In this document: positions 54,546 to 64,000 of the stretch, piece after piece
How positions within the stretch are numbered: the first letter of the stretch is position 1
Layout: each line of letters begins with the position of its first letter
Source of the DNA: Buchnera aphidicola (Cavariella theobaldi)
GTDB lineage: Bacteria > Pseudomonadota > Gammaproteobacteria > Enterobacterales > Enterobacteriaceae
Assembly (NCBI RefSeq): GCF_964059165.1
Contig: NZ_OZ060413.1
Span: 62,001 to 126,000 of the forward strand
Direction of reading: 5' to 3'
DNA: 64,000 nucleotides
Notes under the pieces: model-generated
What the model saw: the letters and a program-made list of their open reading frames with translations, nothing else
Database searches by the model: none
What the model was told of the DNA's origin: nothing
Program-made: the position numbers and the translations under genes

Positions 54546-55646
54546 ATGCAAAATTCCAAGAGAAAGATGGATTTACCGAAATCTATTTTATCACTTATAT
54601 TTATTATTTGTATAACTATTGCAAGTTTTTTAGTTATTCGTCCATTTATTTTAGTTTTTTCTTGGTCAAGTATGATTGTAATTGTAACCTGGCCAATGAT
54701 GCTAAAAATACAGAAATTATGTGGAGGTAGACGATCGATTTCTGTAGTAATTATAATGATAATATTATTACTATTGTTTATTGTTCCTGTATTTTTTTTA
54801 ATTAATAGTCTCATTGCAACAAGTATACCATTAGTTCATTGGTTTGGTTCAAATATTGTAGATTTTCCAGAATTAATATGGCTGCAAGATATTCCTGTAT
54901 TTGGTAAAAAAATATTCATACATTATCAAGAATTATTAGATGGTGATAGCAACGAATTACTTCATGAAGTAAAACCTTATATGGTGCGCACCACTCAATT
55001 TTTTATTGTTCAGGCTAAAAATTTTGCATTGCTTATATTTCATTTGTTATTAATGTTATTATTTAGCGTATTATTATATTGGAATGGAGAAAAAGTTACT
55101 AATTCTATTCGCGATGTTGCATATCGACTCAGTAAAAAAAACGGTCATGCTATTGTGATGCTTTCTGTTCAAGCAGTTAGAGCAGTAGCATTGGGTGTTT
55201 TAGTTACAGCTTTAATTCAATCTGCATTATCTGGAATAGGATTATTAATTGCAGGTGTTCCATATTGGCCATTAGTTATGATGTTAACTATTTTTTCTTG
55301 TTTATTGCAATTGGGACCATTACCAGTTTTAATTCCATCTGTTTTGTGGTTATATTGGAACAATTATTCTACTTGGGGTACTTCTTTACTAGTATGGAGT
55401 TGTTTATTATGTATATTAGATAACATTATTAGGCCTTTGTTAATACGTATGGGTGCCGATGTACCTATTTTATTAATTTTATTTGGAGTGATTGGTGGTT
55501 TAATTTCTTTTGGAATGATTGGTTTGTTTATCGGTCCTGTAGTATTAATTATATTTTACCGTTTATTAATATCTTGGATGTACGGAACGCCTATTCCATG
55601 CTTTCCAGATAAATCCACGGACTTGAAGAGTATTGAAAAAAAATAA
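54546..55646 (+). CDS. ydiK: AI-2E family membrane protein YdiK
   Basis: Polytopic inner-membrane protein of the PerM/AI-2E exporter family, substrate unknown. The 366 residues have about eight hydrophobic segments and the family core GPLPVLIPSVLWLYW, NIIRPLLIRMGADVP and GMIGLFIGPVVL. Strong overall match to E. coli YdiK. 246 bases separate it from divergent sufA, and 284 bases of A/T-rich DNA without a recognised gene follow. Confidence 0.92.
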   Translation: MQNSKRKMDLPKSILSLIFIICITIASFLVIRPFILVFSWSSMIVIVTWPMMLKIQKLCGGRRSISVVIIMIILLLLFIVPVFFLINSLIATSIPLVHWFGSNIVDFPELIWLQDIPVFGKKIFIHYQELLDGDSNELLHEVKPYMVRTTQFFIVQAKNFALLIFHLLLMLLFSVLLYWNGEKVTNSIRDVAYRLSKKNGHAIVMLSVQAVRAVALGVLVTALIQSALSGIGLLIAGVPYWPLVMMLTIFSCLLQLGPLPVLIPSVLWLYWNNYSTWGTSLLVWSCLLCILDNIIRPLLIRMGADVPILLILFGVIGGLISFGMIGLFIGPVVLIIFYRLLISWMYGTPIPCFPDKSTDLKSIEKK

Positions 55647-55930
55647 TGTATTAATATTTCATATATTGATGCGAAAAATTGATCAGATACTATTACATAT
55701 ATAAATATATTTATATGATAATAATATCAAAAAATATTTCATAAAATATTAACAGTTTTTTTATTTTTTATTACATTTATACCTTGTCTTTATTTTATTT
55801 TTTTATTTTAAAAAATTGTCATACTATTGTAAATTTTTTTTTGATAACTTAAGCGATTTGAATAGATTATTTTATAATTGCTTTAATAATATCTTATTAT
55901 TTTAGAATAAAAATTTATTTAGAGAAAAAA

Positions 55931-56977
55931 ATGAAAAAAACAGATGAACTCCGTACAATTAGAATGGATCCTTTAATTACTCCATCTGAATTAGCACAAA
56001 AATATGCTATTACTTCAGATATTATGGATAATGTTATTACAACAAGGCAAAATATTGCACGTATTATGACTGGACAAGACTTACGACTACTTGTTGTCAT
56101 AGGACCTTGTTCTGTTCATGATCCCCTGGCTGCAGTAGAATATGCACATAGATTAAATGAATTACGTATAAAATATAAAGATCGTCTTGAAATAATTATG
56201 CGTACATATTTTGAAAAACCAAGAACAGTAGTTGGTTGGAAAGGTTTAATTTCAGATCCAGATTTAAATGGTAGTTTTAGAGTTAATCATGGACTATCTA
56301 TAGCTCGTAAATTATTACTAGATATTAATTCCATAGGTATGCCTGCAGCAACAGAATTTTTAGATATGGTTATAGGGCAATTTATTGCAGATCTTATTAG
56401 TTGGGGTGCAATTGGCGCGAGAACAACTGAAAGTCAAATTCATCGAGAAATGGCTTCTGCTCTTTCTTGTCCTGTAGGATTTAAAAATGGTACAGATGGG
56501 AATATACGTATTGCCATTGATGCTATTCGCGCCACACAAGCACGTCATTTATTTTTAGCACCTAATAAAAATGGGCAAATGACTATTAACCATACCAGTG
56601 GTAATCCGTATGGACATATCATTATGCGAGGTGGTCGAACACCTAATTATCATGCAGAAGATATTGATTTAGCTGTTAAATATTTGCGAGAATTTAATTT
56701 ATTAGAATATTTAATGGTTGATTTTAGCCATGGTAATTGTTTAAAAGAACATACTCGTCAAAAAAATGTTGCACGTTCTATTGCACATCAGATTGTTAAT
56801 GGTTCTAAGTTTATATTTGGTGTGATGATTGAAAGTTTCTTAGAAGAAGGATTTCAACAAGTAGTGGAAAATCAACCATTAATATATGGTAAATCCATTA
56901 CCGATGCTTGTTTAAATTGGAAAGATAGCAGTATTATTCTTAATCAATTAGCAGATGCTGTAGATGCTCGTTTTTAA
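55931..56977 (+). CDS. aroH: 3-deoxy-7-phosphoheptulonate synthase (AroH type)
   Basis: First enzyme of the shikimate pathway, joining PEP and erythrose-4-phosphate. The 348 residues are the E. coli length. RLLVVIGPCSVHDP, RTYFEKPRTVVGWKGLISDP, GARTTESQIHREMASALSCP and DFSHGN are substrate and metal sites. Sequence is closest to the tryptophan-sensitive AroH. Supplies chorismate via aroC. Ends in a strong terminator. Confidence 0.95.
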   Translation: MKKTDELRTIRMDPLITPSELAQKYAITSDIMDNVITTRQNIARIMTGQDLRLLVVIGPCSVHDPLAAVEYAHRLNELRIKYKDRLEIIMRTYFEKPRTVVGWKGLISDPDLNGSFRVNHGLSIARKLLLDINSIGMPAATEFLDMVIGQFIADLISWGAIGARTTESQIHREMASALSCPVGFKNGTDGNIRIAIDAIRATQARHLFLAPNKNGQMTINHTSGNPYGHIIMRGGRTPNYHAEDIDLAVKYLREFNLLEYLMVDFSHGNCLKEHTRQKNVARSIAHQIVNGSKFIFGVMIESFLEEGFQQVVENQPLIYGKSITDACLNWKDSSIILNQLADAVDARF

Positions 56978-56983
56978 TATTAT

Positions 56984-57016
56984 ATGCTAGTCAGAATTTT
57001 TGACTAGCATCTTTTT
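56984..57016 (+). terminator. Rho-independent terminator after aroH
   Basis: Perfect 10-bp stem ATGCTAGTCA/TGACTAGCAT (56984-56993 and 57001-57010), seven-base loop, then C and five T bases. Starts seven bases after the stop codon; the clearest terminator in the window with the one after tkt. Confidence 0.88.
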
Positions 57017-57217
57017 ATGTATTAAAAAAATATTATAATTAGAAAGAATCAATATGTAATAAAAATATTTTTCGAGACATGTATTAATTTATATGAACCT
57101 AATTTCTGTATACTTTAATAAAAATGTATACATAAATATATTATATTGTCTTAATTTAAAAGACTAATATATAACAAATATTACAGTCTTAAAAAAATTT
57201 TAATTAAGGATTTAAGA

Positions 57218-59149
57218 ATGCCTGTAATAAGTTTTGATGATGGCAGTCAGCAGGTATATGCACATTCTGTTTTATTGACAGATATTATAAAAAATATTAA
57301 ACCTAGTATAAGACAAACATTAATTTCTGTTGCGGTTAATGATCGATTTTCTAATATTGATGCTGTAATAAAAAAAGATTCTAAAATATCATTTTTTTAT
57401 AAACAAGATGATGATACGGTATTAAATATTATTCGATATTCTTGTGCGCAAATTTTAGGTTATGCACTAAAATTGACATGGCCACTTTCTAAAATTGGAA
57501 AACATGATATTACTTCAAATGGTTTTTATTGTGATGTAGATATAGAAAATAATATATCAGAAAAAGATCTTTTATTATTAAACAATTGTATGCAAAATAT
57601 TATCAAAAAACAATATAATGTTTTAATCAAAAAATTTTCTTTTCAAGAGGCAAAAGATATTTTTTTAGAGCGATCTGAACATTATAAAGCATCATTAATT
57701 AACGAAATAATAGATAAAAAAGAAAATATTTTCTTATATTATCATGAGCAACATATCGATTTTGATATAGGTATGCAAGTTTTTAACGTAAAATTTTGTA
57801 AGTATTTTAAATTACAAAATGTTTCAGGTGCATATTGGAAAAATAATAAAAAAAATAAGATGTTGCAACGTATTTATGGTACTGCTTGGTGTGATCAAGA
57901 TCAGATAGATAAATATTTAAATTATATAGAAGAATTAGATAAAAGAGATCATCGCAGAATTGGAAAATTTTTAAAATTATATCATATTCATGAAGCATCA
58001 CCAGGTATGATTTTTTGGCATAATAATGGTTGGATTATTTTTAATGAGTTAGAACTTTTTGTGCGTAATAAATTAAAAAAATATCAATATCAAGAAGTAA
58101 AAACACCATTATTAATGGATAAATCAATATGGAAAGAAAGTGGACACTGGGATAATTATAAAGATTCAATATTTACTACTTTATCCGAAAATCGTGAGTA
58201 TTGTATTAAGCCCATGAATTGTCCTGGACATGTGCAAATTTTTAATGTTGGTATAAAGTCATATCGGGATTTACCAATTCGTATGGCAGAGTTTGGAAGC
58301 TGTCATCGTAACGAATCGTCCGGTTCTTTGCATGGTCTTATGCGTGTTCGTAATTTTACTCAAGATGATGCTCATATATTTTGTACTACAGAACAAGTGC
58401 GTTCTGAAATACATAATTGTATTACAATGATATATGATTTTTATGATGTTTTTAATTTTAAGAATATTTTAGTTAAATTATCTACTCGACCTAAAAAGCG
58501 TATTGGTCATGATAGAATTTGGGATAAAACAGAAAAGGATTTATCCGATGCGTTATTAGAAAGTAACTTATCATTTGAGTATCAGATTGGTGAAGGAGCT
58601 TTCTATGGACCAAAAATTGAATTTATTTTACAAGATTCTTTAAATCGTCATTGGCAATGTGGAACTATTCAACTAGATTTTTATTTGCCTTCTCGTTTAA
58701 ATGCAGTTTATATTGATGAAAATAATCAGCGAAAATTTCCTGTAATGATTCATCGCGCGATACTAGGTTCTATTGAAAGGTTTATTGGTATATTAATTGA
58801 AGAAAGTTCGGGTCATTTGCCTGTTTGGTTATCTCCCGTACAAGTAATAGTGGTTAGTATTTCGTATAATCATGTTGCCTATGTTCAATATATTATGAAA
58901 AAGTTATCTAATTTTAATTTTCGTGTAACATGCGATATAAGACAAGAAAAAATTGGTTTTAAAATTCGAGAGCATATATTATATCGTGTGCCGTACATTA
59001 TTATTTGTGGAGATAAAGAAATGATGAATGATAAAATTTCTTTACGCACAAGAAATGGATGTAATTTAAGTATGATAGATATTAACGTTTTTATTCAAAG
59101 ACTACAGAAAGAAATTAGTACTCGTAGTTTTTGTCCAGTGGAGGAATAG
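57218..59149 (+). CDS. thrS: Threonyl-tRNA synthetase with a degenerate editing site
   Basis: Class II synthetase for tRNA-Thr. The 643 residues have a TGS domain (1-61), N2 editing domain (about 65-225), catalytic domain and anticodon domain. The catalytic zinc ligands are intact in KPMNCPGHVQIF, SSGSLHGLMRVR and VMIHRAILGS. The editing residues equivalent to E. coli H73, H77, C182 and H186 are Y74, Q78, D183 and Q187, so serine clearance should be lost. AAGGAT before the ATG. First gene of thrS-infC-rpmI-rplT-pheST; no obvious leader operator was identified in the 201 bases upstream. Confidence 0.96.
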   Translation: MPVISFDDGSQQVYAHSVLLTDIIKNIKPSIRQTLISVAVNDRFSNIDAVIKKDSKISFFYKQDDDTVLNIIRYSCAQILGYALKLTWPLSKIGKHDITSNGFYCDVDIENNISEKDLLLLNNCMQNIIKKQYNVLIKKFSFQEAKDIFLERSEHYKASLINEIIDKKENIFLYYHEQHIDFDIGMQVFNVKFCKYFKLQNVSGAYWKNNKKNKMLQRIYGTAWCDQDQIDKYLNYIEELDKRDHRRIGKFLKLYHIHEASPGMIFWHNNGWIIFNELELFVRNKLKKYQYQEVKTPLLMDKSIWKESGHWDNYKDSIFTTLSENREYCIKPMNCPGHVQIFNVGIKSYRDLPIRMAEFGSCHRNESSGSLHGLMRVRNFTQDDAHIFCTTEQVRSEIHNCITMIYDFYDVFNFKNILVKLSTRPKKRIGHDRIWDKTEKDLSDALLESNLSFEYQIGEGAFYGPKIEFILQDSLNRHWQCGTIQLDFYLPSRLNAVYIDENNQRKFPVMIHRAILGSIERFIGILIEESSGHLPVWLSPVQVIVVSISYNHVAYVQYIMKKLSNFNFRVTCDIRQEKIGFKIREHILYRVPYIIICGDKEMMNDKISLRTRNGCNLSMIDINVFIQRLQKEISTRSFCPVEE

Positions 59150-59152
59150 AGT

Positions 59153-59692
59153 ATTAAAGGTGGAAAAAGAATACAGTTAACGCGACCACATCGCATTAAT
59201 AGCGAGATACGTGCCGCAAAAATTCGCCTTACAGGAGTAGACGGCGATCAAATGGGTATATATAACTTATATGAAGCATTAGAAAAATCTGAAGATTTAG
59301 GATTGGATTTAGTAGAGATTAGTCCTAATGCGGAACCTCCTGTCTGCCGTATTATGGATTATGGTAAATTTCTTTATGAAAAAAGTAAATCTTCTAAAGA
59401 ACAAAAAAAGAAGCAAAAAATTGTTCAAATAAAAGAAATTAAATTTAGACCTAGTACAGACGAGGGAGATTATCAAGTTAAATTAAGAAATCTTGTTCGT
59501 TTTTTAGAAGATGGTGATAAAGTGAAGATTACTTTGCGATTTAGAGGTCGCGAAATGGCTCATCAAAAAATTGGTGTTAATGTATTAAATAGAGTAAAAA
59601 ATGATTTGATAGAGCTAGCAAATATTGAATCGTTTCCATCTAAAATTGAAGGTCGTCAAATGGTCATGATTTTATCACCTAAGAAAAAATAA
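59153..59692 (+). CDS. infC: Translation initiation factor IF-3, AUU start
   Basis: Binds the 30S subunit and checks start codons. The first ATG (59252) would cut off the N-terminal domain. Reading from ATT at 59153 gives [20 protein letters not shown], matching the E. coli IF-3 N-terminus, and 179 residues (E. coli 180). GAGGAA lies five bases upstream, three bases after the thrS stop. E. coli infC also starts at AUU and is autoregulated through it. [20 protein letters not shown] and [11 protein letters not shown] are conserved. Confidence 0.95.
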
Positions 59693-59755
59693 ATATTTTT
59701 ATATATTTATAACTTGATTTTTTAATAATTTTTTATAATTTTAATGAAATATTTT

Positions 59756-59953
59756 ATGTCAAAAATAAAAACTTTAAAAAGTGCAGCAAAAAGATTTAAA
59801 AAAACTGCATCTGGTAAATTTAAACGTAAACAGGCAAATTTACGTCATATTTTAACAAAAAAAACAACATCTAAAAAACGGCATCTTCGATCAAAAATTA
59901 TAGTATCTAAAAGCGATGCAGATAAAATTAAATCTTTTTTGCCTTATGTATAA
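59756..59953 (+). CDS. rpmI: 50S ribosomal protein L35
   Basis: Start at 59756 gives [17 protein letters not shown] and 65 residues, the E. coli length; an ATG four codons earlier adds non-homologous residues. [18 protein letters not shown] is the L35 signature. There is no clear ribosome site. In E. coli L20 represses rpmI-rplT by binding the leader. Confidence 0.96.
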
Positions 59954-59993
59954 ATAAATTTATACTAAGATAATTATAAATAGGAAAGCATAG

Positions 59994-60350
59994 ATGGCTC
60001 GTGTAAAACGTGGTGTAATAGCTCATGCTCGTCATAAAAAAATATTAAAACAAGCAAAAGGTTATTATGGCGCTCGTTCTCGTATTTATAGAGTTGCTTG
60101 TCAAGCAGTAATTAAAGCAGGGCAATATGCATACCGTGATAGACGTCAACGAAAAAGGCAATTTCGTCAGTTATGGATTACTCGTATAAATGCTGCAGTA
60201 CGTTTAAAGGAAATTTCGTATAGTAATTTTATGTTTGGTTTAAAGAAAGCATCAATTAATATTGATCGTAAAATATTATCCGATATGGCGATATTTGATG
60301 CATTGTCATTTAATGCCTTAGTTCATCAAGCTAAGCAAGCTTTATCTTAA
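59994..60350 (+). CDS. rplT: 50S ribosomal protein L20
   Basis: 118 residues as in E. coli. [20 protein letters not shown] and [13 protein letters not shown] are the family N-terminus that binds 23S rRNA. AGGAAAG precedes the ATG, 40 bases after rpmI. Confidence 0.98.
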
Positions 60351-60363
60351 ATATTAAAATTAA

Positions 60364-60386
60364 GAGGGGAAAATTATTATCCCCTC
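60364..60386 (+). promoter_or_regulatory. GC-rich hairpin after rplT
   Basis: Stem GAGGGGA/TCCCCTC with a nine-base loop, 13 bases after rplT, with no T run. It may protect the mRNA 3' end or be part of the pheST leader structure. Function unknown. Confidence 0.5.
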
Positions 60387-60447
60387 ATTATTAAAGGAAG
60401 TATATAGAAAAGTATATTTTTTTATTATTTATTTTAAAAAATAGAAT

Positions 60448-60473
60448 AAGCTTCCATGATGGAAGCTTTTTTT
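60448..60473 (+). terminator. Intrinsic terminator upstream of pheS, possible attenuator
   Basis: Stem AAGCTTCC/GGAAGCTT with a five-base loop, ending in seven T bases (60467-60473). It lies 50 bases before pheS, where E. coli has the pheM-controlled attenuator. It could simply end the rplT transcript. Confidence 0.8.
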
Positions 60474-60523
60474 ATGAGAGTAAAATATTTTATATTGATA
60501 ATCATTTTAAAAAGAGAATGTTT

Positions 60524-61507
60524 ATGCTTAATAAATTATTTCAAAAAATACAAATAGATATAAAATCTTCAAAAAATATAGAATGTTTAGAAACTCTGAG
60601 AATAAAATATTTAGGAAAAAAGGGTATAATAGCCAATTATATGCAAAAATTACAATTATTATCTCTTCATGATAAGAAAAAAAATAGCATTATAATTAAT
60701 GAAATAAAAAAAAAAATAATAATAGAAATTGAAAAAAAAAATATATTCTTAAAAGAGAAATTATTACAAGAACGTATTAAAAATGAAAAAATTGATATTT
60801 CATTACCTGGTCGTCGTATGCACAATGGTTCTTTACATCCTATTACTCATACAATTAATGATATAAAAAATTTTTTTTATGAATTAGGCTTTAAAATAAA
60901 ACATGGACCAGAAATAGAAGATGAATATCATAATTTTGATGCTTTAAATATTGATAAAAATCATCCGACTCGTGATAGTCAAGATACTTTTTGGTTTGAT
61001 TCTAATCGATTATTAAGAACACAAACTTCTAGTATGCAGATTAGAATTATGAAAAAGGATAAATTACCAATTCGTTTATTAGTACCTGGAAAAGTATACC
61101 GAAACGATTGTGATGCCACTCATACTCCGATGTTTCATCAGGTTGAGGGGTTGATAGTTGATAAAAATATAAGTTTTTCTAATTTAAAATGGATTATATA
61201 TAATTTTTTATATTCTTTTTTTAGTACTAGCGTATCCATTAGATTTCGACCTTCTTATTTTCCTTTTACAGTACTTTCAGCTGAAGTTGATATTATCAAT
61301 AAAAAAGGTCAAGCATTAGAAATATTAGGGTGTGGAATAGTACATCCTAAAGTATTAAAAAATGTTAACATTGATACTAATATATATTCTGCTTGCGCTT
61401 TTGGTATAGGTATTGAGAGAATAGCAATGTTACGTTATGGCATTTTGGATATCAGATCTTTTTTTGAAAATGATTTACGTTTTCTTATGCAATTTAAAAA
61501 TATATAG
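60524..61507 (+). CDS. pheS: Phenylalanyl-tRNA synthetase alpha subunit
   Basis: Catalytic subunit of the heterotetramer. The ATG at 60524 gives 327 residues, the E. coli length, and spaces AAGAGA correctly; an ATG six bases earlier is too close to it. The motif 2 region is VYRNDCDATHTPMFHQVEG and motif 3 is FGIGIERIAMLRYG. SLPGRRMHNGSLHPITHTI marks the start of the catalytic core. Followed by pheT nine bases later. Confidence 0.96.
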   Translation: MLNKLFQKIQIDIKSSKNIECLETLRIKYLGKKGIIANYMQKLQLLSLHDKKKNSIIINEIKKKIIIEIEKKNIFLKEKLLQERIKNEKIDISLPGRRMHNGSLHPITHTINDIKNFFYELGFKIKHGPEIEDEYHNFDALNIDKNHPTRDSQDTFWFDSNRLLRTQTSSMQIRIMKKDKLPIRLLVPGKVYRNDCDATHTPMFHQVEGLIVDKNISFSNLKWIIYNFLYSFFSTSVSIRFRPSYFPFTVLSAEVDIINKKGQALEILGCGIVHPKVLKNVNIDTNIYSACAFGIGIERIAMLRYGILDIRSFFENDLRFLMQFKNI

Positions 61508-61516
61508 TGAGATAAA

Positions 61517-63901
61517 ATGAAATTTAATGAAACATGGTTACGTGAATGGGTAAATCCAGTTGTCAGTAGTGATATTTTATGTCAACAAATAATTAATTCT
61601 GGTATAGAAATAGAGTTATTAAATGTATTTAATCCGTTATGTACCGGTGTTATAGTAGGAGAAATTATAGATTGTATAAAACATAAAAAGCATAAGCAAT
61701 GTAAAATAGTTAAAGTTAATATTGGAAAGGAAAAGTTATTAAATATTGTTTGTCGTGCATCTAATTGCAGAAGTGGTATTAAAGTGGTAGTAGCGACTAT
61801 TGGAGCTGTATTACCTAATAAAGTAGTTATTGATACACGCATAGTGCAAGGCGAAATATCGGAAGGAATGTTGTGTTCTTTTGCAGAAATAGGACTTTTT
61901 GAAAGTAATGATATTATTGAAGTGGATGTAAAAGAACCAATAGGCAAAAATATTAGCGAGATATTCTTACTAAAAGATAAAATCTTTAAAGTAACCACTA
62001 CACCTAATCGTCCTGATGGGTTAAGTATTTTAGGTTTAGCACGTAATATAGCTGCTACCAATAATCTTGTATTACCAATATTGTCATACAAAAAAAATGA
62101 TATAAAAATTAACAGAAAAATTTTTATTGATATTCACTCTAATAAAGAGTGCACTTATTTTGCAGGTCGTTTGATAAATAATATACAAGTAAATGTTAAT
62201 ACACCTTTGTGGATGAAAAAAAAATTATTTTTTTGTGATATGCTATCTAATGATGTTATTACAAATATTACTAATTATGTTTTAATGGAAATTGGACAAC
62301 CTCTTCATATTCTTGATGCAGATCAAATAAATGACGCTATTATTGTACGTATGGCGAGAGAAAACGAAAAAATAATTTTAAAAAACAATAATATAGTTTA
62401 TCTTGACAAAAAAATCTTAGTGATTTCTGATAATCAAAAAATACTATCTATTCCTGGTAATATAAATTCTGATATCGTTGATATAAAAAATAGTACTAAG
62501 AGTGTATTTTTAGGAAATGCCTTATTGAATAAAAGATCGATATTAAGTATTATGAAAAAATTTCCTTCTAATAAGATATTAGAATATTATCGCTATGGAA
62601 TAGATGAAAAATTACAAAATTATGCTATTGAATATGCTACGGATTTAATTTTAAAAATTTGCGGTGGAGTGTCTGGTGCGATTACAAAAAAAACATCATG
62701 TTTTAAAATTGATATTCATAAAAATATTTTATTACATCATAATAATATAAATAAAGTTATTGGTGTTTTTATTGATGTAAATACTATTTCACATATTTTG
62801 AAAAGATTAGATTATACATTTATTTTTAAAAGAGAATATTGGGATGTGATTCCGCCTAGTTGGAGATTTGATATCATTATCGAAGAAGATGTTATCGGTG
62901 ATATACTGCGTATATATGGATATGAAAATATTTTCCCAGTATCTTTAAAAAAAATATTTATTGTTCACAAAAAATATAAGTTAAAAGATTTTTTATTAGA
63001 TAAGGCGAAGATATTATTAACAAATAAAGGTTATTTTGAAACAATCACTTATTCTTTTATTGATCCCAAAAGACATAATATATTTTTTCCTCATCAGTCT
63101 AAATTATTAATATCAAATCCCATATCTAAAGATATGTCATGTATGCGTACGTCTTTATGGCCCGGGCTTCTACAAGCAGTATCTTATAATAAAAATCGTC
63201 AAAATCATAGTATTAAATTTTTTGAAAGTGGTTTATGTTTTCTTCCTGACAAAGATGCGATGCTTGGAGTAAAACAAGAGTTTTTTTTAGGAGGTATTAT
63301 TAGTGGTACATATATGCTAGAAAACTGGCATTCTTTAATAAGAAAAGTAGATTTTTATGATTTAAAGGGTGATTTAGAATGTTTATTAGAATCTATATGC
63401 GGATTAAATAATATAGAGTTTAGAAAAAAACCTATATTAGGTTTGCATCCGAAACAAAGTGCAGCTATTTATTTAAATAATCACTATATAGGAAAAATTG
63501 GCGCAATACATCCTCGGTTAGAAGAGTTATTTAATTTTCATGATAATATTTTTGTTTTTGAAATTTTATTTAATAAAATTACAAATTTTCCACCAGTAAA
63601 GATAAAAAAAATTTCTAAATTTCCTTCTAGTCGACGTGACATTTCTTTTTTGATATCTAAAGATATTGAAATGATTAATGTTATTGAAGAATGTAAAAAT
63701 TTTTTCAAAAAGGGCATAGTAGAAATTAATTTATTTGATATATACTTTTGCAAAAAAATTAGCATGACTCAGAAAAGTGTTGGTATTAGTTTTGTTTTTC
63801 AAAGTGATAATAAAACACTTCATGAAAATATGATTAATATCATGCTTGAAAGTTGTATAATATCATTAAATAAAAAGTTTCAAATTATTTTAAGGAAGTA
63901 A
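61517..63901 (+). CDS. pheT: Phenylalanyl-tRNA synthetase beta subunit with a degenerate editing site
   Basis: 794 residues (E. coli 795): an N-terminal tRNA-binding EMAP-like domain, B3/B4 editing domain (about 205-400), B5 helix-turn-helix, catalytic-like core and a C-terminal ferredoxin-fold anticodon domain. MKFNETWLREWVNP is the family start. In the editing pocket the E. coli E334 equivalent is Gly333, and the HTDASHRYERG segment with T354 and A356 is replaced by SNKILEYYRYG, so tyrosine hydrolysis is doubtful. The histidine of GQPLH is kept. ihfA follows after five bases. Confidence 0.95.
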   Translation: MKFNETWLREWVNPVVSSDILCQQIINSGIEIELLNVFNPLCTGVIVGEIIDCIKHKKHKQCKIVKVNIGKEKLLNIVCRASNCRSGIKVVVATIGAVLPNKVVIDTRIVQGEISEGMLCSFAEIGLFESNDIIEVDVKEPIGKNISEIFLLKDKIFKVTTTPNRPDGLSILGLARNIAATNNLVLPILSYKKNDIKINRKIFIDIHSNKECTYFAGRLINNIQVNVNTPLWMKKKLFFCDMLSNDVITNITNYVLMEIGQPLHILDADQINDAIIVRMARENEKIILKNNNIVYLDKKILVISDNQKILSIPGNINSDIVDIKNSTKSVFLGNALLNKRSILSIMKKFPSNKILEYYRYGIDEKLQNYAIEYATDLILKICGGVSGAITKKTSCFKIDIHKNILLHHNNINKVIGVFIDVNTISHILKRLDYTFIFKREYWDVIPPSWRFDIIIEEDVIGDILRIYGYENIFPVSLKKIFIVHKKYKLKDFLLDKAKILLTNKGYFETITYSFIDPKRHNIFFPHQSKLLISNPISKDMSCMRTSLWPGLLQAVSYNKNRQNHSIKFFESGLCFLPDKDAMLGVKQEFFLGGIISGTYMLENWHSLIRKVDFYDLKGDLECLLESICGLNNIEFRKKPILGLHPKQSAAIYLNNHYIGKIGAIHPRLEELFNFHDNIFVFEILFNKITNFPPVKIKKISKFPSSRRDISFLISKDIEMINVIEECKNFFKKGIVEINLFDIYFCKKISMTQKSVGISFVFQSDNKTLHENMINIMLESCIISLNKKFQIILRK

Positions 63902-63905
63902 ATTT

Positions 63906-64000
63906 ATGGTGCTTACAAAATCTAAAATTTTAGAAAACTTATTTGAAAAATTGCAATTAACTAAAAATGACATAAAAAAATGTTTAGATTTTTTTTTTAC
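63906..64000 (+). CDS. ihfA: Integration host factor alpha subunit, first 31 codons
   Basis: DNA-bending nucleoid protein subunit. MVLTKSKILENLFEKLQLTK followed by NDIKKCLDFFF matches the IhfA N-terminus ([20 protein letters not shown] in E. coli). AAGGAAG ribosome site at the end of pheT. The window ends inside the gene. The pheT-ihfA order is conserved. Confidence 0.92.
   Translation, partial: MVLTKSKILENLFEKLQLTKNDIKKCLDFFF

Follow-up and report, generated by a model that had tools for sequence, protein, structure and literature searches.

A Buchnera threonyl-tRNA synthetase that has lost the catalytic residues of its serine-editing site and retains the N2 domain

The thrS locus

The window (the whole stretch of DNA analysed here, 64,000 nucleotides) contains a 643-aa open reading frame at 57218-59149 on the forward strand, on which all thrS features given below also lie. 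It encodes a complete threonyl-tRNA synthetase (ThrRS, gene thrS), as indicated by TIGR00418 (662 bits versus a cut-off of 384), by the Pfam core domains and by an alignment with E. coli ThrRS (1QF6) that runs end to end and is unambiguous around the editing site. The gene order in the window is ydiK-aroH-thrS-infC-rplT-pheS-pheT, in which ydiK and aroH, upstream of thrS, are names that we take to be correct from the translations. The downstream infC (59153-59692) appears to start at an ATT codon at 59153, three bases past the thrS stop, in the context ATT AAA GGT GGA AAA AGA ATA CAG. An ORF starting with ATG at 59252 is internal to infC. E. coli infC has an unusual AUU start, which seems to be conserved here. 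An Rfam search of window positions 55000-64000 gave no match.

The genome is reduced, with an assembly of 598,844 bases; the window corresponds to positions 62001-126000 of its contig C1. Its plasmid genes comprise leuABCD, a repA-like and a yqhA-like gene on contig C2 and trpEG on contig C4; contig C3 consists of N only. These leu and trp plasmids and the gene order point to Buchnera, and an obligate association with a host would follow from that identity.

The N2 (editing) domain of the ThrRS covers residues ~64-225 (57407-57892). It is full length by alignment and predicted fold, appears catalytically degenerate and is matched weakly by the tRNA_SAD profile (29.7 bits). Residue equivalences were taken from an alignment with 168 other ThrRS, E. 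coli included. Editing-proficient N2 domains carry H73, H77, C182 and H186, and none of the four is present here. The catalytic H73 is replaced by Y74 (57437-57439), H77 by Q78 (57449-57451), the catalytic C182 by D183 (GAT at 57764-57766) and H186 by Q187 (CAA at 57776-57778). In addition, C105 (57530-57532) replaces Y104, while K157 (57686-57688) and D181 (57758-57760), which correspond to E. coli K156 and D180, are kept alongside the equivalent of G184. The catalytic core (57944-58822) contains the zinc ligands C335 (58220-58222), H386 (58373-58375) and H512 (58751-58753), equivalent to E. coli C334, H385 and H511. Replacement affects the editing residues, and the synthetic site is conserved. 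A previous sequence-only reading had proposed the same four replacements, a change of the surrounding MCRGPH to FDIGMQ and intact zinc ligands in the core; the alignment confirms it residue by residue, and the coordinates it gave, 57437-57778, span exactly codons 74 to 187.

Distribution of the loss in Buchnera and related symbionts

C182 and H186 are absent from all 36 genomes of the genus. Because this loss recurs in 35 genomes other than the one studied here, it is neither chance nor sequencing error. Misalignment or an assembly error, to which we assign practically no probability, is ruled out by gap-free anchors on both sides of the site and by the same recurrence in independent genomes. 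Across the genus, position 182 is D in 35/36 genomes and N in one, position 186 is Q in 36/36, position 77 is Q in 34/36 and H in two, and position 104 is C in 33/36 and S in three. Position 73 is variable (Y/R/C/H/N/S), and the D180 equivalent is kept in 36/36. The full HHYKDCH set is found in 109/109 ThrRS of larger-genome enterobacteria. Judged from these residues, the editing-deficient state is genus-wide and ancestral in Buchnera.

Six sister Buchnera genera, recognised through synteny (aroH directly upstream of thrS), carry YQCL, YSVM, CQTQ, SNIQ, YQYQ and YCQS at positions 73/77/182/186. Both C182 and H186 are lost in these sampled genera, with a lone C182 in one of them as the sole exception. 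In three reduced symbionts, G005 (L293), G007 (L295) and G021 (L298), the ThrRS frames measure 409-413 aa and start at the catalytic core, N1 and N2 being wholly deleted; no split or free-standing N-domain gene was found among the ORFs neighbouring these truncated thrS genes. Relationships were derived from a five-gene FastTree LG tree, which has long branches and in which the deletion group is weakly supported internally. The lineages with deleted N-domains group with Buchnera in this tree. ThrRS editing loss may be older than Buchnera, the long branches making the grouping uncertain.

C182S occurs in the ThrRS of two symbionts, which read HHSH (L160, G029) and RHSH with H73R (L153, G058); these are possible early stages of editing loss. 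One genus genome (G067) has a split thrS (L167, G067:C1:3500-5900) with the break within the core. Its thrS and pheT frameshifts, near a contig end, are probably sequencing errors.

The retained N2 domain

In 36/36 genus genomes the N2 frame is open, and the length of N1-N2 is constant within two residues (240-242). The domain is under purifying selection: in close pairs its dN/dS is ~0.24-0.56 (about 0.3), which resembles that of the anticodon-binding domain (0.13-0.46), with 0.06-0.17 for the core. The AlphaFold2 model covering residues 1-242 reached a mean pLDDT of 91.7, and in Foldseek the modeled N1-N2 matches the E. coli editing domain (1TJE) with a TM of 0.85 and the whole ThrRS (1QF6) with a TM of 0.89. 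The fold of an editing-proficient N2 is therefore present in the predicted model. Removal of the editing domain from ThrRS leaves activation intact and impairs tRNA charging (PMC4267643). Because N2 is full length, has a predicted normal fold and is under purifying selection, the simplest and most likely reading is that the dead domain survives as a tRNA-binding part that would contribute to folding and to binding of the acceptor arm.

Editing sites of other synthetases

The editing positions scored in IleRS, ValRS, ProRS, LeuRS and PheRS are those generally associated with editing in these families. In the genome studied here, IleRS and ValRS have retained their editing residues, and in ProRS K279 is kept and H369Y is present. 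The INS domain of ProRS in ten genus loci (L175-L184) likewise keeps K279, with position 369 being F in nine and Y in one. LeuRS of this genome (L225) carries T248D, T252A and D345A. Across the genus, the full TTR..T..D set is present in 10/30 LeuRS loci (L263-L292), and the others (about two thirds) show varied losses; from its sequences, this CP1 mosaic looks like a loss in progress.

In the window, pheT (61517-63901, forward strand) encodes PheRS beta, of which the B3/4 editing domain (~62150-62665) carries E334G, G318N, T354K and A356L. The PheRS beta editing residues are degenerate in 30/30 genus loci and several replacements are fixed or nearly so (A356L in 30/30, H265N in 29/30, G318N in 28/30), the PheRS of the window keeping H265. 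The degenerate B3/4 domain is under purifying selection similar to that on N2 (median dN/dS 0.31). The homologous editing domain of AlaRS retains both of its histidines as well as Q584, C666 and H670 in 30/30 genus loci, and the loss is therefore selective.

Loss of editing and expected mistranslation

Single mutations in E. coli ThrRS decrease the editing kcat 70-fold (H186A), more than 500-fold (C182A/S) and 7000-fold (H73A) (PMC4041444). All four residues are replaced in the Buchnera enzyme, and this pattern gives good support to a loss of post-transfer editing. The known serine-editing chemistry is thus very probably gone, as the sequence-only reading had claimed.

Fidelity could be maintained without N2 if the synthetic site rejected serine or cleared Ser-AMP before transfer, so that little Ser-tRNA-Thr would be made. 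The yeast mitochondrial ThrRS, which has no N2, indeed performs tRNA-dependent pre-transfer editing, although such editing is insufficient in other ThrRS (PMC4267643). Against this explanation, the synthetic site gives no sign that its selectivity has evolved: all 17 synthetic-site residues examined are identical to those of E. coli in 35/35 complete genus proteins. We consider it unlikely; pre-transfer editing may nevertheless lower the serine error rate. Compensation in the synthetic site via T307S or V483I was rejected as well: none of the 17 threonine-site residues listed has changed, V483I also turns up in AT-rich symbionts whose editing is intact, and T307S has a scattered occurrence.

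A trans-acting factor, either unrecognised or supplied by the aphid, might instead clear Ser-tRNA-Thr in the symbiont. It would account for the tolerance of the loss over long evolutionary time, and free-standing Ser-tRNA-Thr editors, namely ProXp-ST1/2 and ThrRS-ed, exist elsewhere (PMC7373986). A search for a free-standing editing factor, also suggested by the earlier reading, was performed over the 36 genomes with the profiles PF04073, PF02580 and PF07973, the archaeal ThrRS-ed model lying outside its scope. Each of the three profile searches gave a positive result with E. coli, used as a control. The tRNA_edit profile gave one match per genome (36/36), each inside a frame of 570-599 aa, which encodes ProRS in those loci that were inspected. 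No free-standing INS/ProX/YbaK protein, no DTD and no AlaX was detected in the 36 genomes, tRNA_SAD being confined to AlaRS and ThrRS. Compensating trans-editors of these known families are absent from all 36 genomes, and that a protein is imported from the aphid is purely speculative. A hidden factor is accordingly highly improbable in our estimate.

With all catalytic residues gone and no known helper, Ser-tRNA-Thr should therefore be released. As the genome holds no known replacement for its hydrolysis, some serine is expected at threonine codons, and Thr-to-Ser mistranslation would thus take place in Buchnera. Based on the residues and their distribution, we strongly favor a normal, essential ThrRS, the only one of the genome, of which the editing site was lost in an ancestor and N1-N2 was kept for tRNA, with serine to be expected at threonine codons. 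In a Buchnera ancestor, the serine-editing site of N2 would have lost its catalytic residues, and the vacated pocket would then have settled on different residues in each deep lineage. tRNA-Thr would be charged normally via the intact zinc-containing core, and Ser-tRNA-Thr would no longer be hydrolysed after transfer. N1-N2 would be retained as it would still help to hold the tRNA acceptor arm and to stabilise the enzyme.

Conservation of the replacement residues

The replacements at positions 77, 104, 182 and 186 underwent 0-2 changes on the genus tree, versus an N2 median of 6. Compared with other replaced positions, the difference has a Mann-Whitney p of ~0.01 with position 73 included, for a choice of positions that was partly post hoc. 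Such unusual conservation is not predicted by pure decay and could mean that the pocket is re-used. D183, Q187, Q78 and C105, together with the kept K157 and D181, might form a new, conserved site for the hydrolysis of misacylated tRNA-Thr or for sensing of the charged CCA end, through a chemistry not found in other ThrRS. In its hydrolytic form, the pocket would bind aminoacyl-A76, and D183, Q187, Q78 and C105 would provide a new acid-base hydrolysis of Ser- or other misacylated tRNA-Thr.

Consistent with such a site, these four residues are nearly fixed over 36 species despite a variable N2, the K156, D180 and G184 equivalents are kept, and N2 is under purifying selection. Acidic residues also work in other editing sites, such as D345 in LeuRS and E334 in PheRS. 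The sister genera, however, carry V/C/Y/T/I/Q at position 182 and M/L/Q/S at position 186, and the degenerate PheRS shows a like fixation at A356L, H265N and G318N. Both observations weaken the conserved replacements as proof of a new function. Moreover, the loss of single residues is already crippling in E. coli (PMC4041444). We regard either form of a new site, sensing or hydrolytic, as very unlikely, and a degenerate pocket in a domain retained for tRNA remains the preferred reading.

Relation to known systems

Melnikov et al. (PNAS, 2018, as cited in PMC10057733, PMC7373986 and PMC11415595) reportedly described editing-deficient aminoacyl-tRNA synthetases (aaRS) in host-restricted bacteria. 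Their survey likely already covers the Buchnera ThrRS. That host-restricted bacteria lose aaRS editing, as the sequence-only reading had brought forward, is well established (PMC10057733, PMC11415595). These bacteria and the case presented here have in common host restriction, a small genome, mutation of the editing site and an aminoacylation core left intact; here the spread is resolved through a single genus and its sister genera. What is new is this genus-scale pattern, together with the selective persistence of AlaRS editing.

Li et al. (2011), as cited in PMC4014445 and PMC10057733, are said to have reported editing losses in ThrRS, LeuRS and PheRS of Mycoplasma, and the same three are hit in this Buchnera. 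According to a 2020 review, Mycoplasma species with three or more editing losses are not known (PMC7373986); unlike Mycoplasma in that account, this Buchnera is degenerate in all three, as read from its genes.

If serine is truly incorporated at threonine codons, Buchnera would represent a mutualist, not a parasite, with an error-prone code, and relaxed selection rather than immune escape would drive the loss of editing. The apparent loss in ThrRS and PheRS in every genome examined and in LeuRS in about two thirds, with AlaRS editing kept in all of them, amounts to a natural experiment on the types of mistranslation that cells can bear.

The yeast mitochondrial ThrRS (MST1) is likewise without post-transfer editing. 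In MST1 the whole domain is absent, whereas Buchnera keeps a catalytically stripped N2 with a predicted fold. An N1-N2-like fold also occurs outside a synthetase in the mammalian mitoribosome (TM 0.70-0.76, Foldseek), in matches that are labeled only as mitoribosome chains and that we take to be mL39. Unlike the N1-N2 of Buchnera, mL39 is a separate ribosomal protein and not part of a synthetase.
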